Source of the DNA: Candidatus Aerophobetes bacterium Ae_b3b
Lineage (GTDB): Bacteria; Aerophobota; Aerophobia; Aerophobales; AE-B3A
DNA: 40,788 nucleotides
Reading direction: 5' to 3'
Assembly: GCA_005223085.1 (NCBI GenBank)
Contig: NJBP01000012.1
Span: forward strand, 1 to 40,788
Translations under genes and position numbers: made by a program
In this document: positions 4,067 to 40,238 of the stretch, piece after piece
How positions within the stretch are numbered: the stretch's first letter is position 1
How the letters are laid out: the number at the start of each line of letters is the position of its first letter
Notes under the pieces: model-generated
What the model was told of the DNA's origin: nothing
What the model saw: only the letters and a program-made list of their open reading frames with translations
The model's database searches: none

Positions 4067-5089
4067 ATGCATGTGAAAAAACATAACCGGCAGCTAACAT
4101 TAAGTGAGCGAAGAGAAGATTTTGTAAAAGTGGGCTTTTTAAAAAGCCTCCTGGTACACCCCGAGGCAGGTATAACTATTGCTGTCGTTATATTACTCAT
4201 CGTCTTCTCAGTTGCATCACCCAGTTTCCTGACGGCATACAATATTTTTAATGTTGCAAGAAATGTCGCGTCCTATGCTTTTATAGCCATTGCCCAGGCA
4301 CTGGTTATCGTTGGTGGAGGGATGAACCTTTCTGTGGGAGCCATAGGCGGGCTTGCGGTAGTCACGACAGGATATTTCATCGATGTTCAGGGTTTTTCTC
4401 CAGCGATAGCTGTTATTATAGCCCTTTTAGTTGGGCTGGCTGCCGGCGCATTCAACGGTGTAATTATAACCAAGATAGGTATCAATTCTTTCGTAGCAAC
4501 ACTCGCAACGCTGTTTGTTTTCACCGGTATTGTATACGGAATTACCAAAGGATATCCCTACATAAACATTCCAAAGTCTTTCACCATCATTGGAAGAAAG
4601 GGTATATGGGGATTGCCTTACCTTTTTTGGCTCATGGTAGTAGCTCTGGGCTTCATCTTTTATCTGTTTAATTTCAGACGCTTTGGCAGATGGCTTCTGG
4701 CGACCGGCGGTAGCAAGGAAGCAACGAGAGTATCGGGAGTCAATGTAGATAGGATAATTTTGCTTTCACATGTATTATCCGGCCTGTTTGCTGCGATTGC
4801 CGGTGTGCTCTGGGTCTCAAGGATGGGCTCCGCCCAGCCGGCAACTGGGCAGGACTGGCTTATCATATCATTTGCGATAGCAATAATCGGCGGAACTGCT
4901 TTGAGCGGAGGGTCAATTTCGGCCCTGGGCCTTCTCATGGGCAGTGTAATAATTGTTCTGATCAGGAATGGGTTGATCCTGCTCGGGGTAAATATATATT
5001 TTGAGCAGACTTACCTGGGACTTATAATCCTGCTAGCAGTTACTGTGGACAGAATAAGGGCTTTTTATTACCAGAGGGCAGGTATTTAA
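4067..5089 (+). CDS. Sugar ABC importer permease (RbsC-like)
   Basis: 340 residues with about ten hydrophobic segments after a polar N-terminus of about 35 residues. Diagnostic stretches include IAQALVIVGGGMNLSVGAIG, GAFNGVIITKIGINSFVATL, GGSKEATRVSGVNVDRI (coupling helix) and GGTALSGGSISALG, all characteristic of the RbsC/XylH family (BPD_transp_2). It forms the membrane channel for the ATPase just upstream and the binding protein downstream. Length is normal for the family. Confidence 0.92.
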   Translation: MHVKKHNRQLTLSERREDFVKVGFLKSLLVHPEAGITIAVVILLIVFSVASPSFLTAYNIFNVARNVASYAFIAIAQALVIVGGGMNLSVGAIGGLAVVTTGYFIDVQGFSPAIAVIIALLVGLAAGAFNGVIITKIGINSFVATLATLFVFTGIVYGITKGYPYINIPKSFTIIGRKGIWGLPYLFWLMVVALGFIFYLFNFRRFGRWLLATGGSKEATRVSGVNVDRIILLSHVLSGLFAAIAGVLWVSRMGSAQPATGQDWLIISFAIAIIGGTALSGGSISALGLLMGSVIIVLIRNGLILLGVNIYFEQTYLGLIILLAVTVDRIRAFYYQRAGI

Positions 5090-11823: not shown

Positions 11824-12708
11824 TTATCCTTTGATCGCCCCTCCAGTTAACCCCTTTATTATATACTTCTGGAAGGTCAGGGCTAGTATTACCGGAGGAA
11901 GGCTGGCCAATACGCCACCAGTGCTCATCATAACATAATCTGCTCCAAATTTAGTGCTGAATTCCGATACTAAAACAGGCAATGTCTTGACTGCCGCTTG
12001 AGTGAGAATCAAAGCAAGAAAAAATTCATTCCAGGCCACTATGAAAGCAAATATACCGGTAGCAGCTAATCCTGGTGCAGCTAAAGGTAAAACAATTCTA
12101 ACCAATGTACCTAACCGGGAACACCCATCTATCCTGGCCGCGTCTTCTATATCGATGGGTATTGTCTGGAAATACCCCATCATTATCCAAATCGTAAGAG
12201 GTAATACAAAAGAGGAATAAGTAATAAATAAACCCAGATGCGTATCCAAAAGACGAAGAGTCATCATAACTACATAAATAGGAATTATAATTGCTACTGC
12301 TGGAATCATCTGGGTAGCCAAAATCATTAAAAGAAGAGAGTGCCTGCCTCGAAATCGAAGTCTGGTAAATGAGTAAGATGCAATAGATCCGATGACCAAA
12401 CATAAAACCGTTGCACTTCCAGCAACGATAATGCTATTCCCCACCGCTTGTTTAAAGTAACGAGCTGCCCTGGTGGTCCTGGTTCCCCCAAATAATATCT
12501 CCTTGTAGCTTCTTAAAGTTGGATTCTTCGGTATCCAGTGGGGGGGAACGGAGAGCAGTTCGGTTTTTATGGAGATACTGGAGATGATTAACCAACAAAA
12601 TGGAACTATGGTAAACAGAAAAATTAGTACAACCAGTGTATATATTAAGACCTGATATGCTGGCAAGTGCTTGAGAAAACCGGTAATTTTCATTTCTACT
12701 TTTCTCAT
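11824..12708 (-). CDS. Sugar ABC importer permease (MalG-like)
   Basis: 294 residues with six membrane segments and the MalG-type coupling loop EDAARIDGCSRLGTLVRIVLP (EAA motif). I take the ATG that overlaps the stop of the preceding permease by one base (TGATG) as the start, so the pair is translationally coupled. It is the second membrane subunit of the importer with the MalF-like protein; no ATPase gene is present in the cluster, so a shared MsmK/UgpC-type ATPase encoded elsewhere is expected. Confidence 0.92.
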   Translation of the reverse strand: MRKVEMKITGFLKHLPAYQVLIYTLVVLIFLFTIVPFCWLIISSISIKTELLSVPPHWIPKNPTLRSYKEILFGGTRTTRAARYFKQAVGNSIIVAGSATVLCLVIGSIASYSFTRLRFRGRHSLLLMILATQMIPAVAIIIPIYVVMMTLRLLDTHLGLFITYSSFVLPLTIWIMMGYFQTIPIDIEDAARIDGCSRLGTLVRIVLPLAAPGLAATGIFAFIVAWNEFFLALILTQAAVKTLPVLVSEFSTKFGADYVMMSTGGVLASLPPVILALTFQKYIIKGLTGGAIKG

Positions 12709-13622
12709 CAAATTGTCTCAGCGTATAAGGTTTCGGTGTAAACGAGCCTCATATAGACTACAGCAAACACCAGAATGATCAGAGTTATCAGATAAGATAT
12801 AGCGGCTCCATATCCAAAACGAAGGAACTTGAAAGTGGTCAGATAGGCATAAAATGTTACTACCTGGGTACTTTCAGCAGGGCCACCCCTGGTTATCATA
12901 TAGACTATATCAAAGCTGTCTCTTATGGCCCATACTGATTTAAGGACAATCAAAAGTAGTATTATCGGCTTTAGCAGGGGTAGGGTTATATATCTAAAAC
13001 GACGCCAGGGACTGGCCCCATCCACCTTGGCTGCCTCATATAAAGAGGAGGGAATAGTTTGAAGAAAGGCAAGAATAAAAATAACACCCACCGGGGTTTC
13101 CTTCCATATCTCCGCCATTACAACAAAATTCATCGCTACTCTGGGATCCGCCAGCCACACCTTATAAGAATCAATCCACCCTAACTGTAGTAGAAACCCA
13201 TTGAGTGCACCGTAGCTGCCATCGTATATCCACTTCCACATCATTCCATTTACCACAGAAGAAAGTGCCCAGGGAAGTATTATCAATCCTCTCACAAAGG
13301 CCCTACCCTTAAAGTCTTGATTTAACACCAGAGCTATCCCAAGACCGAGAATGATCGCTACTCCTACGCTGACTCCCGTGAAGTAGAAGGTACGTCCTAC
13401 AGCAGCCCAAAAAACTGGGCTGCGCGATATCTTGATATAATTTTCCAACCCGACAAAGGGAAACTCTCCCGGACGCACTAAATATAACTTATGGAAACTT
13501 ATATAAACTGAGTAAAGTATTGGCCAGATTATGATACTGAAGATAACTACCAGACTGGGCAAAATTAATAGATAGCCGATCCCTGCCGATGAAGTTAACC
13601 ATCTTTTCATCTTTTCACTCAC
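12708..13622 (-). CDS. Sugar ABC importer permease (MalF/UgpA-like)
   Basis: 304 residues with six membrane segments. The coupling motif is YEAAKVDGASPWRRFRYITLP and the C-terminal half carries YMITRGGPAESTQV, a hallmark of MalF/UgpA proteins. The longest frame begins with GTG (13622); an ATG four codons later (13610) is equally possible, and neither has a strong SD. The MATE gene ends 34 bases upstream on the same strand, so the two may be co-transcribed. Confidence 0.92.
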   Translation of the reverse strand: MSEKMKRWLTSSAGIGYLLILPSLVVIFSIIIWPILYSVYISFHKLYLVRPGEFPFVGLENYIKISRSPVFWAAVGRTFYFTGVSVGVAIILGLGIALVLNQDFKGRAFVRGLIILPWALSSVVNGMMWKWIYDGSYGALNGFLLQLGWIDSYKVWLADPRVAMNFVVMAEIWKETPVGVIFILAFLQTIPSSLYEAAKVDGASPWRRFRYITLPLLKPIILLLIVLKSVWAIRDSFDIVYMITRGGPAESTQVVTFYAYLTTFKFLRFGYGAAISYLITLIILVFAVVYMRLVYTETLYAETI

Positions 13623-23151: not shown

Positions 23152-23179
23152 TTGACAAACTCATTTTTTAGTATATACT
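23152..23179 (+). promoter_or_regulatory. Promoter of the AbrB-like/arsM operon
   Basis: TTGACA, 16 bases, TATACT. Transcription start is predicted around 23186, inside the palindrome that follows. Confidence 0.7.
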
Positions 23180-23196
23180 GAATTATCAGATAATTC
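23180..23196 (+). promoter_or_regulatory. Palindromic operator candidate at the arsM-operon start site
   Basis: GAATTAT-CAG-ATAATTC, a perfect 7-3-7 inverted repeat that touches the -10 box and covers the predicted start site: the classical position for a repressor. The AbrB-like protein encoded next is the first candidate to bind it; an ArsR-type repressor encoded elsewhere is the alternative. Confidence 0.55.
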
Positions 23197-23228
23197 TGAA
23201 AAAGGTACTTTGCAGTGAGGTAATTAAG

Positions 23229-23510
23229 ATGGCAAAGAAAGAAAAAAGTAAACCTTATTGTAGCCCTCTGGATACAGGGACCAGCTGCTGTAAGGTTGAA
23301 TCGGTAATAAGTATCGACGAGAGAGGGCAGATGGTGCTTCCTAAGGAGATAAGAGATAAGGCAAAAATTGGTGCCGGGGACAAATTAGCTGTTATGAGTT
23401 GGGAAAAAAATGGGAAGGTATGCTGTATTTCCTTGATTAAGACCGAAGATCTTACAGCAATGGCAAAGGATATGCTGGGGCCGATGATGAAAGAGATAAT
23501 CACCAAGTAA
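23229..23510 (+). CDS. Cys-rich AbrB/MazE-like DNA-binding protein, arsM-associated
   Basis: 93 residues. The middle (VISIDERGQMVLPKEIRDKA, then GAGDKLAVMSWE) is the swapped-hairpin AbrB/SpoVT DNA-binding fold. Five cysteines are unusual for it: Cys11, the pair 20-21 (GTSCCKVE) and the pair 65-66 (KVCCISL). It resembles AbrB-like proteins annotated beside mercury-methylation genes (HgcAB-associated protein) that also occur beside arsM. No hgcA or hgcB is in the window. I infer a thiol-based sensor for arsenite or another soft metal that regulates its own operon through the palindrome upstream. The arsM gene follows after 29 bases. Confidence 0.8.
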   Translation: MAKKEKSKPYCSPLDTGTSCCKVESVISIDERGQMVLPKEIRDKAKIGAGDKLAVMSWEKNGKVCCISLIKTEDLTAMAKDMLGPMMKEIITK

Positions 23511-23539
23511 TATTAGTAAATAACTTCGAGGGGGTTAAA

Positions 23540-24397
23540 ATGAAAGACGAGAAAGTAAAGAGAACCGTAAGAGAAGGTTATGCCAAAATCGCCAAACAGG
23601 ATGGTTCCTGTTGCACTCCGGTGAATTCGTGTTGTGGAAGTACTAATGTAGCACAGGACATCAGCAAGAAGATAGGATATACTGGAAAAGAGCTTAAGGA
23701 GATTCCTGAAAGTGCAAACTTAGGGCTTGGCTGTGGGAATCCTGTTGCTCTGGCTTCTCTAAAAGAGGGCGAAACCGTGCTTGATCTTGGCTCAGGTGCA
23801 GGGTTAGATTGTTTTCTTGCTGCTAACAGAGTCGGTACCAAAGGAAGGGTTATCGGGGTGGACATGACACCCGAGATGATCGAAAAGGCAAAAGAGAATG
23901 CCCAGAAAGGTAACTACAAAAATGTAGATTTCAGGCTGGGAGAGGTTGAAAACCTACCGGTTGCTGATGGTTCTGTTGATATAGTGGTCTCAAATTGTGT
24001 CATCAACCTTTCACCCGACAAAAGAGGAGTCTTCCGGGAAGCGTTCAGGGTGCTGAAACCAGGTGGTAGGCTGATGATCTCGGACATAGTTCTGCTCAAG
24101 GAACTTCCCGATTTCATAAAGAACTCTGTTGAGGCATATATTGGTTGTCTTTCGGGAGCAATGATGAGGGATGAATACCTAGGGGCTATAGGAGCGGCAG
24201 GATTTCAAGAGGTCAGGATAATTGATGAAACGTCTTTTCCTATTGATTGGATGGCCAATGATCCCACGGCAAAGGCAATCATGGAAAATCTAAACCTCCC
24301 GCCAGAGAAGGTAAAAGAGATTGCAAGTTCGGTTACAAGTATAAAAGTAAGGGGAATAAAGCCAAATGAGACAATTAACTCTCTTTTGCTAAATTAA
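23540..24397 (+). CDS. arsM: Arsenite S-adenosylmethionine methyltransferase ArsM
   Basis: 285 residues. The SAM-binding motif I is VLDLGSGAGLDCFLAA (80-95), followed by VIGVDMTPEMIEKAKEN. The three cysteines needed to bind trivalent arsenic in known ArsM enzymes are present: Cys65 in LGLGCGNP, Cys153 in SNCVINLSPD and Cys203 in YIGCLSGA. Two extra Cys pairs sit at the N-terminus (SCC at 23-25, SCC at 30-32). The enzyme methylates arsenite to mono-, di- and possibly trimethyl arsenic in the cytoplasm, using a thiol reductant. It is co-transcribed with the Cys-rich regulator, and an M48 protease gene follows after 46 bases. Confidence 0.93.
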   Translation: MKDEKVKRTVREGYAKIAKQDGSCCTPVNSCCGSTNVAQDISKKIGYTGKELKEIPESANLGLGCGNPVALASLKEGETVLDLGSGAGLDCFLAANRVGTKGRVIGVDMTPEMIEKAKENAQKGNYKNVDFRLGEVENLPVADGSVDIVVSNCVINLSPDKRGVFREAFRVLKPGGRLMISDIVLLKELPDFIKNSVEAYIGCLSGAMMRDEYLGAIGAAGFQEVRIIDETSFPIDWMANDPTAKAIMENLNLPPEKVKEIASSVTSIKVRGIKPNETINSLLLN

Positions 24398-26360: not shown

Positions 26361-29300
26361 ATGTTCCAATCAAGAAAACGGTCTGTGCTCTCATCATTTG
26401 TGGCCGTGATGCTGCTGGCCTGTCTTGTGCCCGTAGGTTCGGTGGCTGGCACAACATTTCCTTCAGGAGAAGAGATTGCCGATGCAAAAGCTGGCGATCT
26501 AATATTGAAAGCCGGTACCTACGAAATTGGAGGAAAGTCCTACCGAGCAGATTATGGCACTCTTGTTGTTCCGGAAAACAGGAATAAGGATGACTCACGG
26601 TTGATTCAGCTTCCGGTCATCAGAATACATGCCACAGGTGAGAATCCCGCCGAACCGGTATTCTTGCTAGTAGGTGGCCCGGGAGCTCCAAATGTTTTTT
26701 CTGCAGAGAGATTGGCAAGAATTGGATTCGATGATTTCCCCAAAGCATGGCTACTTGACCATCATGATTTTGTTATGGTTGGCTATCGGGGCGTTGATGG
26801 CTCCATTTCGCTTAACTTGCCGGAGGTTGCGGAGGCAGTGCAAGTTGAGAAGAATCCCCTTTCCTCAGAAAATCTGGAGAAACTGGGAAAGGCTTATCTT
26901 ACTGCTTTCCAAAGACTGAAAAGGGAAGGGGTTGATATTGATGGGTATACCATGGTTGAAGTAATTGATGACATGGAAGCTGCCCGAAAAGAACTGGGAT
27001 ATGAAAAGATCAACCTTTACAGTCCGAGTTATGGCTCACGCGTTGCCTATATATATAGTTTAAGATATCCCGACAGCATCCATCGATCCCTCATGGTTAG
27101 TGTGAATCCTCCAGGCCATTTTGTCTGGGAACCGGAAATGGTGGACTCTCAACTAAGGTACTATGCCGACCTTTGGGAAAAGGACCCTGTAGCTGTTTCA
27201 AAGAGCCCTGATCTTGTCAAAACCATGCAAAATGTGCTTAAAACCCTGCCCCGAGAATGGGAGGGTTTCAGGATTGACCCGGGCAAGGTCAAGATCACGA
27301 CGTTCATGCAGCTAATGCACAGGGCTTCAGCCGCCCAGGTTTTTGATGCCTATGTAGCGGCAGAGAAAGGAGATTACAGCGGTCTTGCCTATCTTTCAGT
27401 CGCTTATGACAAAATAATTCCCAACTCGAGCAATTGGGGTGAGCGTGCCTCAAAAGCTGTTAGTGCCGATTATGACCCCAAGCGGGACTATGAAGCTGAA
27501 ACGGATCCAGCGGGCTCGATTATCGGCTCTCCTGTATCTAAACAGGATTGGGGTAGCTTAGAAAAAGGTGGCTGGCCGATTAAACCAATTCCGAAAGAGT
27601 ATCGAAAGCTGCAGTATTCAGATGTTGAAACATTGTTGGTGAATGGAAGTATTGATTTTGCAACTCCTGCTGAAAGCGCCAAAGAGCTACTACCCTATCT
27701 TCGAAACGGAAAGCTGGTTATTTTGGCAGAAATGGCGCATGTCTCAGATTTAGAGAATATTCAGCCTCAAGCGTTTCAACATCTGGTGGAGAGATTCTAC
27801 CTGGAAGGGATCGTTGATGACTCTAAGTTCACCTACGAACCTATGAACTTTACCCCATCTCAAACTTTTCAAGACATAGCCAAACAATTTGTTGAGCAAG
27901 CCGCCCGGGGAGCGGCAGGACCAGCATCAGCCGAGAGGGGCAATGTGTATGAGGACCCGGAAGGCCGCTTCAGCATTCCCCTGGTAGGTGACTGGACCGA
28001 GGTTAAAACCGACGGCACTTATGCGAAGTTCGCGTTAGCTACGCCACCCCTGGACATGTACATCGTCACCGCAGAATCCTCTGATCTTGAGGCTGGTATG
28101 GATGAGGCCCTGAGGCAAGTTGGTATTGACCCTGGAGCACTAACGCTGCAGGATACAGGAAAATATGGCAATTGGAACTTATTCTACTACTCTTTCGGGG
28201 ACGGAAAGGGAGTCACGGTTCCAGCCCAGGTAAAAGATGAGACCACCTATTGCCTCATTATTACCGGGGATGAAGTTTTCACCATGGACCCTTCTGCTAA
28301 CCTGGTTAAGACCGTTGGCGGTTTTGCTCTCGCTAGCGAAGAGGTTATCCTCCCCACCACGGTCGATGAGTTTGAAGCATACATTAACAGCTTTGTGGGA
28401 GACAAGCCCCCCGCACTATCCATTGCCATTGCCCTCGGTAGTGATGTCATCTATACCAAAGGATTTGGAATGGCAGATGGTCCCAAGGGTATGGTAGCGA
28501 CTGCAGATACGGTGTATCAGTGGAGCTCAATGAGTAAAATAGTGAGCGCGACTGCGATTATGCAGCTTCGTGAAAAGGGTCTGCTTGACCTGGATGCACC
28601 GGTATCTCAATATCTAGATTATTTCCCTGCTCAGTATCCCATTACCGTTCGCCAAATCGAGAGCCATAGCAGCGGAATTCCCGAACCCGCTGATTTTGTG
28701 GTGCAGTACCTTACTTTGGAGGATCAGCCTCTCCCTGATCCGGACCAGATTGCGAGGAGATTCTCTAAAGAGTTCACCGGTCCCGGCTTTGAGCCCGGTT
28801 CAGCCTCTGCCTATTCCAGCCTCAACTCTGTCATCTTAGGCCAGATCGTGGCTGAAGTCTCCGGCATGTCCTACATCGAGTATGTGAGGGAGAACATTCT
28901 CATTCCCCTGGGAATGGAAAACACAGACTTCATCTACGCTAGCGATGCTATGATCGAGAAAGCAGCGGCTGGTGCTTTTGCAGCAAATGAGGCAGAGGCT
29001 GTAATTGCCATGGTAGATGAGATTAGAGGAAGAGGAGATGGGGCTGATTTTGTCCGTGAAGTTGATGGAGATCTTGCCTGGATGAACCGCTTCCGTGTTT
29101 TTGCACCAGCCGGTGGAGGCCTCATTGGCCCGGTAACTGAGGCCATTCGCTTCCTGGGGGCGCACCTCAATGGTGGCGAGTTTGAGGGAGTTCGTATTCT
29201 TTCCCCTGAGTCAGTTAGCCTCATGCGAGAGATGCTGCTTTCCAATACGGGTACCCCCTTAGGATTCGGAATTGGCTGGATAATTCTTGATGAGGTTCCC

Positions 29301-29471
29301 CATCCTTATGTTGAACATCCTGGTAGTGGCTACGGTAGCCAGGCTCTGATGCGCCTCTACCCCAATGAAGGATTCGCTGTTGTCATCATGAGCAACTTTG
29401 AGGGATATGACCACGAAGGGGTGGTAGATGCCGCTGCCAATGTGGTGTTCTCTATGCTGGAAGGGCGGTAA
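26361..29471 (+). CDS. Exported fusion protein: alpha/beta hydrolase plus beta-lactamase-fold serine hydrolase
   Basis: 1036 residues behind AAGGAGGA. The N-terminus is a signal sequence; LLAC (18-21) could be a lipobox. Residues about 65-485 are an S33/TAP-type alpha/beta hydrolase: LLVGGPGAP (oxyanion region), VGYRGVDGS, nucleophile Ser223 in SPSYGSRVA (first Gly of GxSxG replaced), Asp432 in NGSIDFATP and His460 in MAHVSD. Residues 528-658 form a small domain (DPEGRFSIPLVGDW) that I know from proteins with a following beta-lactamase domain. Residues about 664-1036 are a class C beta-lactamase/esterase fold: SxxK is Ser723-MSK726, YxN is replaced by YSS (818-820), HxG is HPGSG (986). Both active sites look intact apart from the YSS change. 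Peptidase, esterase or cell-wall peptide activity is possible. Confidence 0.88.
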   Translation: MFQSRKRSVLSSFVAVMLLACLVPVGSVAGTTFPSGEEIADAKAGDLILKAGTYEIGGKSYRADYGTLVVPENRNKDDSRLIQLPVIRIHATGENPAEPVFLLVGGPGAPNVFSAERLARIGFDDFPKAWLLDHHDFVMVGYRGVDGSISLNLPEVAEAVQVEKNPLSSENLEKLGKAYLTAFQRLKREGVDIDGYTMVEVIDDMEAARKELGYEKINLYSPSYGSRVAYIYSLRYPDSIHRSLMVSVNPPGHFVWEPEMVDSQLRYYADLWEKDPVAVSKSPDLVKTMQNVLKTLPREWEGFRIDPGKVKITTFMQLMHRASAAQVFDAYVAAEKGDYSGLAYLSVAYDKIIPNSSNWGERASKAVSADYDPKRDYEAETDPAGSIIGSPVSKQDWGSLEKGGWPIKPIPKEYRKLQYSDVETLLVNGSIDFATPAESAKELLPYLRNGKLVILAEMAHVSDLENIQPQAFQHLVERFYLEGIVDDSKFTYEPMNFTPSQTFQDIAKQFVEQAARGAAGPASAERGNVYEDPEGRFSIPLVGDWTEVKTDGTYAKFALATPPLDMYIVTAESSDLEAGMDEALRQVGIDPGALTLQDTGKYGNWNLFYYSFGDGKGVTVPAQVKDETTYCLIITGDEVFTMDPSANLVKTVGGFALASEEVILPTTVDEFEAYINSFVGDKPPALSIAIALGSDVIYTKGFGMADGPKGMVATADTVYQWSSMSKIVSATAIMQLREKGLLDLDAPVSQYLDYFPAQYPITVRQIESHSSGIPEPADFVVQYLTLEDQPLPDPDQIARRFSKEFTGPGFEPGSASAYSSLNSVILGQIVAEVSGMSYIEYVRENILIPLGMENTDFIYASDAMIEKAAAGAFAANEAEAVIAMVDEIRGRGDGADFVREVDGDLAWMNRFRVFAPAGGGLIGPVTEAIRFLGAHLNGGEFEGVRILSPESVSLMREMLLSNTGTPLGFGIGWIILDEVPHPYVEHPGSGYGSQALMRLYPNEGFAVVIMSNFEGYDHEGVVDAAANVVFSMLEGR

Positions 29472-32672: not shown

Positions 32673-34625
32673 TTATTTGCCGTTTCTTGAGTTTACTAGA
32701 AGTTTGCCATCACAAAAATTGCAAACATCTTTAGGCTCAGTTCCTTTTATAAAAATCTCTTTGATCTTCCCGGGACAAAAAGAGCCGACTAACATCCCTG
32801 ATTGGGGACAAACATAAACTTCCATTAATCCGGCGGGAATAGTAAAATCAAAATTTCTCCTCTTTTCTCTTCTTTCTAAAAGAAGCATAATATCTCTAAA
32901 GAGTGGACCTGCTCCAGAAACTCCAGAAACACTCTGCATGGGCCTGCCATCAAAGTTACCCACCCATACCCCTACCGTATGATGAGGAGTATAACCTATA
33001 GCCCAGTTATCTCGGAAATTTGCCGAAGTTCCAGTTTTTACGGCACAGGGAAAAGGCAGGCTCAAACACGATCCTTCTCCAAAAGCAGGAATTCGGGCAT
33101 CTCTATCTTGGAGAATATTGGTGATAATATAAGACACCTCTGGAGAGAAAACACGACGAGAGGAGCCTTTTGGAAAAGACTTGGTTCTGTCCTGGATATC
33201 TTTGGCCTCCAAAAATATCCTCTCCTTTTTAAATACTCCTGATCTGGCTAAAGCTCCGTAAGCTCGGGCCAGCTCCAACAAGGTAACTTCTCCACCTCCC
33301 AGGGTAAGACCAAGACCATAATAATCAGCTCCTTTATCAAGAGTTTCAAAACCGAGCTTCTTGAGCCTATGAAGCAAAGATTCTATCCCTATATTTTCCA
33401 AGACTCTTATGGCTGAAACATTATAAGAACAGGCTAAAGCTTCTCTTAATCGAATGAGTCCATGAAACTTTCCGTCGTAATTTCTGGGAACATAGTCAAC
33501 TTCCTTACCTCGAATACGAATCTCCGTGTCCAGGATGAGAGTAGCTGGTGTCATTCCCTGTTCTAAGGCAAGAGCGTAGGTAAACGGTTTTAGGGCCGAA
33601 CCCGGTTGTCTTAAGGAAGTAACAGCGCTCACCTGTCCACTATGATAGGAATCAAAAAAGTTAGCCGATCCCACCAGGCAGAGAATTTCACCACTCTTAT
33701 TATCCATAATAACAGCTGCCGCATTGCTAACTTCCCATTTTTTTAAAGATTTGACAGAGTTTCTTAAAAGGACTTCCACATCTTTCTGAAGCTCAAAATC
33801 CAGAGTAGTTCGGAGGGAGGAGATATTTTGTCTCTCTTTGGGTGAGATCTTCGAGAGAACCAAATCACAAAAATGAGGAGCACGGAAGGATATCTCGGGA
33901 GAGATGAGATTGAGAGGTTCTTTAAAAGCTCTTCTATACTCTTCTTGCTTAATCATTCCCTTATTTAACATTCTTCGAAGAACTTCTCGTTGTCGTTTTT
34001 GCGCCCGAAGCTGATGGCGATAAGGATTGTAAAGGGAAGGACCCCGGGGAAGCCCGGCTAAAAAAGCTGCCTCAGCTAAAGAAAGATGAGATGGGGGTTT
34101 ATCAAAATAAAGTGAGGAAGCGGCATTAATCCCGAAAGTTTGATTACCATAAGAAATACGATTAAGATATTGAGTAAGAATTTCATCTTTGGACCTCGAA
34201 ATTTCTAGCCTTAAAGCATACCAGATTTCTACCATCTTCCAGAACCAATTCCTCGGAAAATGATAGATATTTTTTACTACCTGCTGGGTAAGTGTGGAAC
34301 CACCAGAGACAATTCTTCTCGCTCGGATATTCTGAATTATGGCTCTGGCAATGGCCCTTATATCAATACCGGGGTGTTCATAGAAACGGCTATCTTCCGC
34401 GGCTAAGGTGGCAAGGATTGCATTTGGGGAAATTTCTGGAAGAGAAACCCACCGACTTCTTCCCTCTTGGTCAGAGAGAACTTCTCTTAAAAGATTCCCC
34501 TTACGATCGAGAATTCTTAAAGAAACTACCGAAGCAGGCTCGAGTGCTTTTCGGGAGAAAGGAATATATAAGGATACCCCCAATAATACCAGGACAAATC
34601 CTAAAGAAACACTAAAAATCTTCAT
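32673..34625 (-). CDS. pbpC: Penicillin-binding protein 1C
   Basis: 650 residues; an N-terminal membrane anchor (5-22). The glycosyltransferase 51 domain has AAEDSRFYEHPGID (catalytic Glu77) and SGGSTLTQQVVKN (107-119). The transpeptidase domain has SxxK in PGSALKPF (Ser343), SxN in CSYNVSA (Ser400) and KTGTSANFRDNWAIG (Lys530). The C-terminal extension is short, ending with a four-Cys region (VCPQSG, FCPGK, CNFC), so the full BiPBP_C domain of E. coli PBP1C (about 770 residues) is reduced. It polymerises or repairs peptidoglycan in the periplasm. It starts 3 bases after the alpha-2-macroglobulin gene's stop, the usual yfhM-pbpC pairing. Confidence 0.94.
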   Translation of the reverse strand: MKIFSVSLGFVLVLLGVSLYIPFSRKALEPASVVSLRILDRKGNLLREVLSDQEGRSRWVSLPEISPNAILATLAAEDSRFYEHPGIDIRAIARAIIQNIRARRIVSGGSTLTQQVVKNIYHFPRNWFWKMVEIWYALRLEISRSKDEILTQYLNRISYGNQTFGINAASSLYFDKPPSHLSLAEAAFLAGLPRGPSLYNPYRHQLRAQKRQREVLRRMLNKGMIKQEEYRRAFKEPLNLISPEISFRAPHFCDLVLSKISPKERQNISSLRTTLDFELQKDVEVLLRNSVKSLKKWEVSNAAAVIMDNKSGEILCLVGSANFFDSYHSGQVSAVTSLRQPGSALKPFTYALALEQGMTPATLILDTEIRIRGKEVDYVPRNYDGKFHGLIRLREALACSYNVSAIRVLENIGIESLLHRLKKLGFETLDKGADYYGLGLTLGGGEVTLLELARAYGALARSGVFKKERIFLEAKDIQDRTKSFPKGSSRRVFSPEVSYIITNILQDRDARIPAFGEGSCLSLPFPCAVKTGTSANFRDNWAIGYTPHHTVGVWVGNFDGRPMQSVSGVSGAGPLFRDIMLLLERREKRRNFDFTIPAGLMEVYVCPQSGMLVGSFCPGKIKEIFIKGTEPKDVCNFCDGKLLVNSRNGK

Positions 34626-34628
34626 CTT

Positions 34629-37600
34629 TTATTTAATAACAACCTCCTTTTCCCTGCTTCTTCCAAAAACTTCCGGGGTGTACATCTCTTCTGCTTTGGT
34701 AGCAGGAAGACAATAAGTTCCTGGAGTTGTTACTCTTACTAAATAGGTATGAGTATGAATTCCGGGAGGAAGATAATCGGCGAAGAGAAGAACCTTGTCG
34801 TTATACATCTCCATATGCCTGAATCCTTGCCACCAGGGCTGGGTTTTTCTTTTTTCTATTTCTCTGGCCAGTTCCCTACTTTCCGTTTCAAAAGAAAGAT
34901 TCACCGGCGCAAAACCTGCCGGCAGCGGGTCTTCCACGACAACGAAGTGTCGTGCCTGAGGAATAACTACCTTTAGATTAACTACTACCAAATCCCCCAG
35001 TGGGAAAGAATCTTCTATCCTTTTTCCCTCAAGGGTCTCGAAGCTCTTAAAAACTGCGATTCCTTCATCCCGAGCCTCTATTCTCCCGGTTGGAGCATAC
35101 CTCATTCTTACCTCGTAATACATGCGACCCTCTCCATCTTTATCAATCTCTAAGGGTAGTTTTTCCCCTTTTTCTAAGGAGGCGATATCTACTGTTTTCT
35201 CGCTAACTCTGTCAATTCTCCTTCGGAAAAAGTGCTCGAGAATAGTTTTTCCTGCAAGCTGGACCTTTACCTGAAATTCAGGTTCTTCCTCTTCATAACG
35301 GTGAAAATAATCAGCTAAAGCGTAGAAAAGATAAGCATTATCTTGAGTAGATAACCACCGACCTTGCTGCTCCCTCAGAAGATACCGAGCAATCTGAGGG
35401 CTGAAAACGGGCTCTTTTTCTATCTCGATAAGCGTCTGCAGGATCATAGCCGTAGTGCGAAGGCTGCTGTGAAAAACCCAGGGTATTTTCTCTTCATCCT
35501 CAAAATAAGCACTGGTGGGAGAGATCTTTATCTTGTTCATAAAGTCCCGTACCAACTCTTCCTCCATTTCTCGATCTCCCGGTCCCAGATGGATAGCTTT
35601 GACTAAAAAGGTACGAGCAAAGAGGGGTATTTCATCTCTTTTTCGGTATAAGCGTTCCATGTAAGCGGGTTCAGGTTTTCCTAAAAGTGAGAGAACATAG
35701 AGAGAAAAGGCTTCCGAGCTTCTCCAGGATCTTGAGCCATAAGGATATTTTTGTTTCTCGAGCTTTCCGCGGAGAAATTCCTTAAGGTACTTAGCTCCTT
35801 TCTCCATAATACTTGAAGGAACTTCATAGCCAGCTTCCTCGGCTTTCTTTAAGATAAAGAGAGTGTAGCAGGTAAGGTAAGGAGAATCATAAGATGAATC
35901 CTCCCAATAGGAAAATCCTCCGTTCGGCCTCTGATAGAGAGAAACTTCCTTTAATGTTTCTTTAATGATCTGTTCAGGACTTTTCCCTTCGGGAAATGAG
36001 AAATGAAAACTTTCTACTATATCCTGGGAAAGAATTAAAGGAAATATCCGAGAAAGGCGCTGTTCCAGACAAAGGTAAGGATAATTGAGGAGAGAAACAA
36101 AAGGATGCTTTAAAGAAAATAATAGGCCCGAGGAAATAGCTACTTTTACTTCTCCCACATCGGGATAAATATCTTCAGGAATGAGAATCTCTTGATACGC
36201 ATCTTCTAAGCTACTTTCGAAGAGAGCTAAACTTTCGGTTTGTCGGGGAAGATTCACAGGAACCGTAACGGCAAGGCCGTCGCTATAGTCTCCCATTATG
36301 GCTTTAAAGAAAAATTTTGCCTCTCCTATTTTGTGAGCTTCAAATGAAAACCTCACCTCTCTATTCTCTCCGGGCCGCAAGAAAACTCTCTTAACTTTTT
36401 CTCCCTTCAGGGTAATTCCTTCTGTTTCTCCTAACAGTTGAACCTCTCCTTCCTTCCCGGTATAATTATATACTACCACCCCGGCTTCAAAAGAGTCTTC
36501 CCTGCGGACGAATTGAGGCAGGGCACTCTTTAAGAGCAGAGGTTTTTTCACCACCAGTTTTTCCTCTCCGGCACCGAAAGATGAGTCTTTGGTGAGAGCG
36601 GTAACCATTACCTTGAAAGTAGTAAGATTATCGGGAAGCTCAAAACTTACCTCACCCCATCCCTCAGCTCCAATTTCCACCGAGGGATTCCAGTAAGCAG
36701 TGGGAATAAGCCTTTCTCTCATAGCTATGCCGGCAAACTTCTCCATTCCCCCATCGCCTCCGGGACTTCTTCCTTTAGTTGCCACCTCGGTGGCCTCAAT
36801 TACATAAAAGCGCGTCTCCGAAGTTATAACAGACAACGGTCGATGGCTATAGAAAGTGGTAAAGGCATCAGGAGTCTTATATCCTATGAGGTTCAACACC
36901 CCCATATCTACCACCGCTACAGAAACCTCGGATGACACCGGCTCCCCAGCAGCGTTTCTTACCTTAATGGCTAGCCTCACCTTATTTTGAGGAGAGTATT
37001 CCTTCTTGTCGGGAATAACCTCTACCTGGAGTCGCTTCTCCATGGGGTCTACAGAAAGGTCAAGGTAGCCTATTTTAAAGGAAGGTTTTGCTAAATTCTC
37101 TTTTCCGGGAGTGTGATCTTCGGACAGTCTTCCCCGGAGAAGAATGACTGAAACAAAGAGATTGGGAATATGGTCACGGGTAATAGGAATCTCAAGGGTA
37201 TCGGCCGTGCCCTGTATCTGGTCGACCCAACTTTCTATAATACCCTCCCTCTCAAGCGTTATTAAAGCTCTTGCCTCCTCATAGGGTGATTTAACTAAGA
37301 TTTTAGCTCTATCCCCGGGACGATAATTGGTCGCATCAGCGACTAATTCAATCCGGTCATCTTTTCTTTTTTCCCAGAGATCATATCCTTTCCCACTTGC
37401 ATAGAAGGAGCTCCCGGTGAGAATTTTATTTCCCCGGGAATCTTCCCCTCTTGCTTCCAGAAGATAGAGTCCAGCACTTTCAGGGGAAAAGGAGAAAGAT
37501 AGAGGTTCCTCTCCAGAAATTACTTGGTAAAAAGCCTTTTCCTTATCCTCTTTTTTACTAATCAAACTCCAGCGCCCTCCGGGTCTTGCTTCTCTTTTAG

Positions 37601-40238
37601 AATACCACACCCGCTTTAACACCCGAAGCTCCAAGTTCTTTCCCGGAATAACCACTCCCTCGGAGTTTACCGTGATAACTTTAATCTTAACTTCCTCCCC
37701 TTCTTTGGTAAAAGTAGTGGAAGGTTTTATTCCTATATAGTACTCGCCCCGATGAACGACTGCCGTAGTGCGATCCGCGATACTCTGGCGAGTAAGGTCG
37801 GTAACCACTGCTTCCAGACGCAGGCTAGCCGAACCTTTGAAACCAACCTCTTCAAGACTCTTTTCTAGATAAAATCTTCCTGAAGAATCCAGTTTCCCCT
37901 CGCCAGACTCTATAAGCTGACTCTCATCATCATCTTCCCACCATCCGGGACCGAAGAAATATCCCTGGTGACCTGGAGGGGAAAAACGAGTGGGATTTAA
38001 CCTCAGTTTCCAGGAAACTTTCTCCCCGCTCATGGCTGCCCCGAAAAGATAGCTTCCCTCAATAGTTGCCTTGCAGGAATCTTTAAAGACATAGCTCTCT
38101 TTATCAGTGCGGACACTGACCTCGAAATTAGCCGGGCGAAAATCTTCTACCCGAAAAGATCCGTCAAACCTGCTTTCGGGGTGCTTATTCCGCTCTTCTT
38201 CATTCTCAAAAGGAGAAACCTGAATTCGGTAATACCCCGAAGGGGCATCCTTGGCTAGCGTAAAAGAAAGGAAGAAAGAGCCATAAGTAGAAAAAGCGAC
38301 CTTCTCTTTAAGAATTTCCTCATCCCGGGAATTGCGTATGAAAATCCAGGCCTCTTTCGTCTCAGGAATTTCCCACTTTCCGCTTCTTTTCTCTCTCACT
38401 ACTGCCTTCAGGTGAACTTCTTCTCCGGGTCGATAAAGACCTCTCTCGGTAAAGAGATAACCAGTGAGTTTCTGAGGGACTGGTCCCCAGTCATAAGAAA
38501 TACCAAATTGATAAGGGAAAATACCGGTTCCCCAATCAGAATTAATAACCACAGTATCCTCTCCTCGGCTAACAACGGCCCACTGGCGGGGTTTCTCTCC
38601 CTCTCTTTTGGCTTTTATTCCTAGAGTCTTCCATCCTGGTGTACGTACTAACCCATGAGAGTCGGTCCTCCCTCTCCAGAAAACCTGGTTAAAATCATCT
38701 CTTATTTCTACCAGGGCTCCCTCTATGGGAGCAGCAGTCTTAAGCTCTGTTACCCAGATAAGATTGTTTTCAGAAGAAAATTTGGCCGTCATTCCCATTT
38801 CGGTAACTTGAATAAAAACTCTTCTGTATCGTTCATATTCTTCTAATTCAGGAATGAAGAGTTCGGTGAAAACGGCGCCGTATTTCTTTTGGCCCAAAGT
38901 ATCTTTGATCTTTATAAAATCGACTACCTCCTGATTCCGAGATTCTTTTATTCTCCATTCTCTACTAATGTCAAGGAAATTTTTTATATCTTTGATGGGC
39001 TCACCTTGCCGGAAAATCCCTTCTTGGGAAAGGAGGGGAATGACCTCATCTAATCCGAGGAACCCCACTCGAAGTTTCACTTGGCTTATGTTCATAAAAG
39101 TAACCGGATACAAAAGACTTCCATAAGCTTCCAGAACGGCCCACCTGCCAGATGTAGATACCCAGGGAGCATAAGGACCGGTGCTAAAAGTAAAGTTTGT
39201 CTTCTCATCAAGAGGATTTCCAAATCTATCTTTGAGATCAGGAGAAAGAGCAGCCGTATAAAGGGTGTCAGGCTCAAGATTGAGCCATAAGTAAATGCGG
39301 GAGTTAGAATAATCCGATCCATAGTAATATTCAGGTATTTCTATCTCAGGCTGGAAAGAGATGTTGGTAGCTACTTCCCGGTAAGAGACAGGATTGCTAA
39401 AATTAAGGACAATAGAATCTTCGGGACTACTAAGATGAGGCTTCTCTATACGCAAGAATCTAAAAAGTCCATAAGTTGAAAAATTAAATTTATAATCTTT
39501 GGACATCCCTAAAGGACCTTCTACTCCTGGAAGCCCTTTAAGGACTTTTACCTCGTAAAAATATCCCGGTCTAAATTTTCCTTCAGGCTTCAAAAGAAGA
39601 ATTTCTCCTTCCTTAGCTCGAAGACGTTGCTCCTTTATCTCCTCCTGAGTTAAATATCTCACCTGAAAGGGAAGGAAGGTTTTTCTTCCCTCAGAACCTC
39701 TTCCAGTAAGTTCCAAAAAGTCTCTTGCCTCTTCGAGAGGCATCTTCTGATTGAACTGAAGGATTACTACTTCATTTAAATTGATCCATTGACTTTTGTC
39801 TCGAGGCCAGTGGGAAATGAGCTTTGGTCGAGGAGTTTCGAATGACCAGGAAAAATCTTCTTTTAAAACGTGTCCAGAAATTGAGGAGATACCCCGGGGT
39901 ACAGTGACAGTAAAATTAGTTCCGTAAGGAAGCCTCCCCCTTTCAGGAAGAAAAACTAAAGTGCGGGTTCCCATCCAGCGATACTTTCCAGAAACCCTGG
40001 GTCTGATGAGAAGAGGGCCTGTTCCTTCTCCTTCGGGAAATTTTTGCAGGGAAACCATAGGTTGGTTAAAACTAACAATAATAGTGGAGGTTTCTCCAAT
40101 ATGGTCTGTGGGACCTCGAGGTGCAACCGAAAGAATCTTAACTTCCTCCGCAAAAACGGAAGAAAGTCCCCATTTTGTAAGAACAAGAAAAGTTAAGATT
40201 CCTACCAGCCATACCATCTTTTGTTTTCTTTTAAGCAC
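34629..40238 (-). CDS. yfhM: Alpha-2-macroglobulin family protein (YfhM-like) with thioester site
   Basis: 1869 residues from a GTG preceded by AGGGAGG (7-base spacing); an ATG seven codons later is possible. The signal peptide ends SVFA/EEV, an ordinary cleavage site rather than the lipobox of E. coli YfhM. The thioester motif CLEQ is present (Cys1390 in PYLCLEQRLSR). Before it lie many macroglobulin-type beta domains (for example SYDWGPVPQKLTGYLFTERG, LYRPGEEVHLKAVVREK) and the bait-like region. After it comes the alpha-helical thioester domain (RPNGGFSYWEDSSYDSPYLT) and a receptor-type C-terminal domain. Such proteins trap invading proteases, and the partner PBP1C repairs the wall. It is longer than E. 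coli YfhM (about 1650). Confidence 0.95.
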   Translation of the reverse strand: MLKRKQKMVWLVGILTFLVLTKWGLSSVFAEEVKILSVAPRGPTDHIGETSTIIVSFNQPMVSLQKFPEGEGTGPLLIRPRVSGKYRWMGTRTLVFLPERGRLPYGTNFTVTVPRGISSISGHVLKEDFSWSFETPRPKLISHWPRDKSQWINLNEVVILQFNQKMPLEEARDFLELTGRGSEGRKTFLPFQVRYLTQEEIKEQRLRAKEGEILLLKPEGKFRPGYFYEVKVLKGLPGVEGPLGMSKDYKFNFSTYGLFRFLRIEKPHLSSPEDSIVLNFSNPVSYREVATNISFQPEIEIPEYYYGSDYSNSRIYLWLNLEPDTLYTAALSPDLKDRFGNPLDEKTNFTFSTGPYAPWVSTSGRWAVLEAYGSLLYPVTFMNISQVKLRVGFLGLDEVIPLLSQEGIFRQGEPIKDIKNFLDISREWRIKESRNQEVVDFIKIKDTLGQKKYGAVFTELFIPELEEYERYRRVFIQVTEMGMTAKFSSENNLIWVTELKTAAPIEGALVEIRDDFNQVFWRGRTDSHGLVRTPGWKTLGIKAKREGEKPRQWAVVSRGEDTVVINSDWGTGIFPYQFGISYDWGPVPQKLTGYLFTERGLYRPGEEVHLKAVVREKRSGKWEIPETKEAWIFIRNSRDEEILKEKVAFSTYGSFFLSFTLAKDAPSGYYRIQVSPFENEEERNKHPESRFDGSFRVEDFRPANFEVSVRTDKESYVFKDSCKATIEGSYLFGAAMSGEKVSWKLRLNPTRFSPPGHQGYFFGPGWWEDDDESQLIESGEGKLDSSGRFYLEKSLEEVGFKGSASLRLEAVVTDLTRQSIADRTTAVVHRGEYYIGIKPSTTFTKEGEEVKIKVITVNSEGVVIPGKNLELRVLKRVWYSKREARPGGRWSLISKKEDKEKAFYQVISGEEPLSFSFSPESAGLYLLEARGEDSRGNKILTGSSFYASGKGYDLWEKRKDDRIELVADATNYRPGDRAKILVKSPYEEARALITLEREGIIESWVDQIQGTADTLEIPITRDHIPNLFVSVILLRGRLSEDHTPGKENLAKPSFKIGYLDLSVDPMEKRLQVEVIPDKKEYSPQNKVRLAIKVRNAAGEPVSSEVSVAVVDMGVLNLIGYKTPDAFTTFYSHRPLSVITSETRFYVIEATEVATKGRSPGGDGGMEKFAGIAMRERLIPTAYWNPSVEIGAEGWGEVSFELPDNLTTFKVMVTALTKDSSFGAGEEKLVVKKPLLLKSALPQFVRREDSFEAGVVVYNYTGKEGEVQLLGETEGITLKGEKVKRVFLRPGENREVRFSFEAHKIGEAKFFFKAIMGDYSDGLAVTVPVNLPRQTESLALFESSLEDAYQEILIPEDIYPDVGEVKVAISSGLLFSLKHPFVSLLNYPYLCLEQRLSRIFPLILSQDIVESFHFSFPEGKSPEQIIKETLKEVSLYQRPNGGFSYWEDSSYDSPYLTCYTLFILKKAEEAGYEVPSSIMEKGAKYLKEFLRGKLEKQKYPYGSRSWRSSEAFSLYVLSLLGKPEPAYMERLYRKRDEIPLFARTFLVKAIHLGPGDREMEEELVRDFMNKIKISPTSAYFEDEEKIPWVFHSSLRTTAMILQTLIEIEKEPVFSPQIARYLLREQQGRWLSTQDNAYLFYALADYFHRYEEEEPEFQVKVQLAGKTILEHFFRRRIDRVSEKTVDIASLEKGEKLPLEIDKDGEGRMYYEVRMRYAPTGRIEARDEGIAVFKSFETLEGKRIEDSFPLGDLVVVNLKVVIPQARHFVVVEDPLPAGFAPVNLSFETESRELAREIEKRKTQPWWQGFRHMEMYNDKVLLFADYLPPGIHTHTYLVRVTTPGTYCLPATKAEEMYTPEVFGRSREKEVVIK

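Follow-up and report, generated by a model that had tools for sequence, protein, structure and literature searches.

The window analysed here, a stretch of 40,788 nucleotides from Candidatus Aerophobetes bacterium Ae_b3b, carries on its plus strand a short gene of the hgcC family (23229..23510, ATG start) coding for a 93-residue protein of the AbrB/SpoVT fold, a candidate thiol-based repressor with cysteines at positions 11, 20, 21, 65 and 66. Further along the same strand, after 29 bp, begins arsM (23540..24397), whose 285-residue product, an arsenite S-adenosylmethionine methyltransferase, matches the NF008823 profile well above the family cut-off (358.8 bits against 263). A single strong promoter lies ahead of the pair: a promoter scan placed a -35 element TTGACA at 23152..23157 and, after a 16-bp spacer, a -10 element TATACT at 23174..23179 (both plus strand), which together match the consensus at 11 of 12 positions, the best in the region. 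The first-pass annotation, made from the letters by themselves, had seen here an AbrB-fold protein with five cysteines, including two CC pairs, directly upstream of arsM, and the ORF translation together with the TIGR01439, PF04014 and NF008823 matches bears this out. Elsewhere in the window, in a single ORF (26361-29471) a TAP-like alpha/beta hydrolase is joined to a domain of the beta-lactamase family, and on the minus strand (32673-40238) a transglycosylase/transpeptidase adjoins a bacterial alpha-2-macroglobulin of 1869 residues.

By its curated score the 93-residue protein is a member of the HgcC family, and it carries a DNA-binding domain of the AbrB/SpoVT superfamily. It reaches 124.6 bits with NF040962 ('HgcAB-associated protein HgcC', NCBIfam; cut-off 70) and aligns to positions 1-70, that is, to the full 70-position model. 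Membership follows from this score, the hgcAB neighbourhood merely supplying the family name, and the adjacency to hgcAB from which that name derives is not found at the window locus, where arsM comes next. The protein also exceeds the cut-off of the AbrB-type model TIGR01439 (33.1 bits against 28.3) and, barely, that of the MazE model PF04014 (24.9 against 24.7). A predicted monomer model (mean pLDDT 78; residues 1-19 disordered) had SpoVT, AbrB, Sso7c4 and MazE as its top structural matches (best Z 6.0, rmsd 1.7 over 48 residues); the model supports the fold only, not the geometry of the cysteines.

A palindrome and a 9-bp repeat array at the shared promoter

The site that had been put forward as the operator, GAATTATCAGATAATTC (23180..23196), is a perfect 7-3-7 palindrome with one central base at the shared promoter, and it is unique in the window (two matches, which are one site on both strands, with 0.20 expected). 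It is not conserved as such: at that place the nearest relative (L012) has TATACTGCATTATCAGAAAAAGC, and the palindrome was rejected as the operator unit because it is broken in this and most other relatives, which keep an array of pentamers at 9-bp steps. The symmetry comes from the array itself, whose third unit, TCAGA, is the centre of the palindrome and an approximate centre of symmetry for the array as a whole. Of the proposed matching operator, what stands is a candidate operator over the hgcC-arsM promoter; what falls is its identity, the candidate now being the 9-bp TCWGA array at 23168-23199, with the palindrome a by-product.

Recognised by comparison of homologue upstream regions and by shuffles, the array has four units in the window, TTAGT (23168-23172), ACTGA (23177-23181), TCAGA (23186-23190) and TCTGA (23195-23199), placed at -19, -10, -1 and +8 from the predicted start, and it spans -19 to +12 of the TTGACA/TATACT promoter. 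Its four-unit score was reached by none of 2000 dinucleotide shuffles, and this is the sole such place in the window. A looser form of the pattern, run over the whole 2.04-Mb genome, found the window site and three others, two of them inside genes (one judged only by its overlap with an ORF at 12708-13622) and one before a PqqD/radical-SAM pair. The last, TCAGACAATTCAGAAAAATCTG, is an intergenic three-unit array with the 9-bp step (L116, about 1502-1523; 18109-18130 on contig C17 of the same genome), some 47 bp ahead of the PqqD and radical-SAM/SPASM genes, and is a possible second target of the regulator.

The array recurs in archaea and bacteria

For a first set, named genomes supplied 80 relatives of the protein; counts were taken over 81 loci, whose record titles name many phyla and which are not all independent, and over 75 non-redundant upstream regions. 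TC(A/T)GA pentamers spaced by steps of exactly 9 bp, an array common to archaea and bacteria, were present in 65 of these 75 regions and in none during ten rounds of shuffling. At a three-unit score of at least 13, it was found within 150 bp upstream of hgcC at 71 of about 82 loci, against five matches elsewhere in 751 kb, two of which lie before the decayed one of two hgcC copies in L059 and one at the true promoter of L114, where the start codon had been set too early. With the same score, periods of 7, 8, 10 and 11 gave no matches in the hgcC upstream regions, and a direct test of periods 6-14 peaked at 9 alone. A CTGA-N4-TCAG dyad, also considered as the operator, is real (46 of the 75 upstream regions against 0.14 in shuffles) but was set aside as merely the commonest spacing inside the array: further peaks lie at TCAG-N6-CTGA (40) and at the same word spaced by N14 (50) or N5 (20), with near zero between, and the peaks fall only at values compatible with a 9-bp step.

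Two independent sets were selected by searches with the family HMM, one over 393 archaeal genomes of a single phylum (to which the Methanomicrobiales genome L104 belongs), with matches in 74 genomes and 76 loci, the other over 400 Chloroflexota genomes, with matches in 16 genomes and 17 loci. The array passed at 23 of 28 arsM-linked, 20 of 22 hgcA-linked and 9 of the remaining 26 archaeal loci, control periods giving 0, and at 15 of the 17 loci from Chloroflexota. Relatives linked to acr3 (L192-L217) have a weak, degenerate array, a 9-bp repeat of the TTCNGAA type, and in L194 and L219, where arsM precedes hgcC, no array was found before either gene. A wide regulon was considered and rejected: the extra array matches in 20 genomes were mostly ACAGAG-type tandem repeats, and AT-rich promoter arrays were mostly hgcC's own.

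The units of the archaeal array fall at 0, 9, 18 and 36 and the TATA box takes slot 27, with 25 of 43 loci having TTTAAAT at precisely this position; bacteria have TTGACA or a near match as the -35 element in 38 of 39 loci, and their three best units reach into the region from -13 to +1 at 29 of 38 loci. Because two types of promoter share one operator over the element that positions the polymerase, as a repressor needs, this placement argues for repression rather than activation. Array position and gene order, compared across loci, likewise support the first-pass view of a regulator that would act at its own promoter and be co-transcribed with arsM.

Genes behind hgcC and the ArsR context

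Gene order shows that hgcC most often has arsenic genes, not mercury genes, as its partners. At 69 of 81 loci of the first set a homologue of ArsM starts within about 700 bp downstream, hgcA replaces arsM in five, and other genes follow in L074, L106 and L108. The next gene in the archaeal HMM set is arsM at 28 of 76 loci, hgcA at 22 and, in about 18 of the other 26, a gene for ACR3-like arsenite efflux, identified in every case from its N-terminus, with confirmation by TIGR00832 for all three tested (438-452 bits); arsM takes this place at 16 of the 17 loci from Chloroflexota. The arsenic link that had been suspected from a single locus therefore recurs across many phyla, and with acr3 as well as arsM. 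At three loci (L054, L075, L086) arsM and then hgcA follow a single hgcC on one strand, so that one transcript may serve arsenic as well as mercury methylation there. L059 has two hgcC copies, one decayed and shortened (4153-4410) with an intact array, before arsM, and one intact (6001 onward), before hgcA.

That no ArsR gene lies nearby, as first stated, proved correct: the window's contig (C65) has no match to HTH_5, the winged-helix model, and of seven such matches elsewhere in the genome one is a CVC-type ArsR on contig C76. This gene (L005), the only strong ArsR/SmtB gene of the genome, lies beside a thioredoxin-like protein and a permease that matches the SO_0444/SaoE efflux models below cut-off. 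At other hgcC loci, ArsR occurs within the flanks in a minority. A search for HgcA elsewhere in the window's genome, a MAG that is 88.6% complete, gave only a CdhD-type match of 28% identity.

Conservation of the cysteines

Cys21 is present at all 81 loci of the first set and Cys66 at 79. Two of the search seeds contained CC, and the cysteines were recounted over the 62 loci matching a Cys-free seed (Cys21 in 62, Cys66 in 60) and over the HMM-selected sets; the pattern holds, which rules out seed bias as the source of the conservation. Among archaeal copies linked to arsM or hgcA, Cys65 and Cys66 both occur in 50 of 50, and Cys21 in 27 of the 28 arsM-linked and 19 of the 22 hgcA-linked copies; Cys20 is rare in the archaeal HMM set, and the Cys set is incomplete in some copies. 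In the acr3-linked subgroup Cys65-66 are retained and the N-terminal cysteine is shifted by a few residues, with an extra cysteine in the preceding loop. One distal pair and one proximal cysteine persist across the arsM, hgcA and acr3-like contexts, and the AbrB paralogues examined, from the genome of the window and from its phylum, contain no cysteine. Since the cysteines are kept beside metalloid genes and absent from the paralogues, selection has probably acted on a thiolate site and the metalloid gene neighbourhood in concert. The cysteines would be accounted for just as well by antimony, redox stress, Hg(II) or methylated arsenicals.

Discussion

Comparison across loci shows the family, an operon-like gene order, the array and its place over the promoter, and it lends strong support to an operator with a repression architecture. 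A Cys-rich AbrB protein in this setting before arsM suggests that arsenic can be sensed by a protein with no relation to the classic ArsR, and we think it likely that the HgcC-family protein is a repressor of the AbrB fold that acts locally, regulates its own gene and senses trivalent arsenic through its thiolates; that it represses rather than activates, that arsenic is the inducer, which cysteines would bind it and that binding to DNA is oligomeric are the parts of this reading that we infer. The AbrB/SpoVT swapped-hairpin domain would bind the TC(A/T)GA array, with its units 9 bp apart, sitting on it as a dimer or a chain of dimers, and the bound array, overlapping the start site and the -10 element, or in archaea the TATA box, would block transcription of the hgcC-family gene and arsM. 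Trivalent arsenic entering the cell would then be bound as thiolates by the N-terminal Cys20 and Cys21, possibly Cys11, and by the Cys65-Cys66 pair, which is predicted to lie on the last strand; by bridging the N-terminal and Cys65-66 thiols, arsenite may cause the dimer or higher oligomer to leave the array, upon which arsM would be made. Trivalent arsenic is the best guess for the signal because the targets are arsM and, in relatives, acr3. As a target hgcAB also fits, because an arsenic-answering ArsR-like protein reportedly controls hgcAB in a bacterium, Pseudodesulfovibrio mercurii (cited in PMC10349881).

Thiol oxidation, Hg(II), some other soft metal or a methylated arsenical, rather than arsenite, might be what the same repressor and operator answer to, in which case arsM and hgcAB would belong to a general response to soft metals or redox state. 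At 22 of the 76 archaeal loci hgcA is preceded by this protein and this array, and the hgcA-linked copies retain most of the Cys set, as such a signal would allow; we nevertheless regard it as unlikely, given that arsM and acr3 make up most of the targets, that acr3 acts on arsenite, and that the Pseudodesulfovibrio report ties hgcAB itself to arsenic. Still less probable is a plain autorepressor with no metalloid switch, its cysteines serving a structural metal or a disulfide and the operon being regulated by dosage only: the N-terminal cysteines do vary among subgroups, but the Cys sites are near-invariant, the family's neighbours are mostly metalloid genes, and related AbrB proteins are entirely without cysteine. 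An activator that recruits polymerase through the array would explain why the array is conserved at the promoter, yet it would get in the way over -10/+1 in bacteria and around the TATA slot in archaea, and bacterial loci already have a consensus TTGACA, so that we give it very little credence. That the protein is the antitoxin of a type II toxin-antitoxin pair (MazE/PrlF), as hgcA-linked copies are labelled in a published survey (PMC10349881) and as a PF04014 match slightly over cut-off might suggest, is scarcely credible when the next gene is no toxin, being arsM at the window locus and arsM, hgcA or acr3-like in most relatives, and when the table of an AbrB/MazE neighbour survey (the part available of PMC2701414) names only toxins, with PIN, MazF, Fic and RelE as the usual partners.

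The arsenic-sensing repressor thus remains our preferred reading at this locus. A wider claim, that HgcC-type AbrB proteins form a separate class of metalloid sensor in archaea and bacteria, with a 9-bp-periodic pentamer operator, and provide one arsenic-responsive switch for the methylation and the efflux of arsenite and for the methylation of mercury by methanogenic and methanotrophic archaea, seems to us evenly balanced between true and false.

Zhang et al. 2023 (PMC10349881) put forward a 'prlF/abrB' gene upstream of archaeal hgcA as a regulator of hgcAB and labelled it a toxin-antitoxin gene; judging from its annotation and position, we infer that this gene belongs to the same family as NF040962, and the order of regulator and target is the same as at the window locus. 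As far as the available part of that paper goes, no description of the operator, the cysteine pattern or the arsM/acr3 link was found. The family name HgcC and the link to hgcA are already known, and relative to the literature searched, from which subscription papers were mostly absent, so that earlier work may exist, the arsM/acr3 link, the cysteine pattern and the operator are new. For a regulator so far known by name only, this offers a testable hypothesis on operator and ligand, with an AbrB-fold alternative to ArsR. The array can serve as a search handle for the regulon in any genome, and since the same array stands before archaeal hgcAB, it bears on the purpose and the inducer of the archaeal mercury-methylation genes.

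HgcC as named has hgcAB as its target, whereas at the window locus the target would be arsM, in a genome with no detectable hgcA. Akin to the As(III)-responsive members of ArsR/SmtB, the proposed repressor would be a small autorepressor over its promoter, with ars derepression by thiolate-bound arsenic, but ArsR/SmtB proteins are winged helices and the HgcC protein has the swapped hairpin of AbrB. With the AbrB/SpoVT/MazE superfamily it shares the fold and the DNA-binding motif D-x-R-G-Q-x-V-L-P-K-x-x-R, and it differs in its near-invariant Cys sites, its 9-bp pentamer array and its lack of a toxin partner. MraZ is another AbrB-fold protein that binds evenly spaced repeats; it has two AbrB domains per chain, its repeat and target differ from those of HgcC, and its profile NF001476 scores the 93-residue protein at 16.7 bits, far under the cut-off of 162. 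What the two would have in common, on our reading of HgcC, is an operator made of a repeat array and read by an AbrB-type protein.
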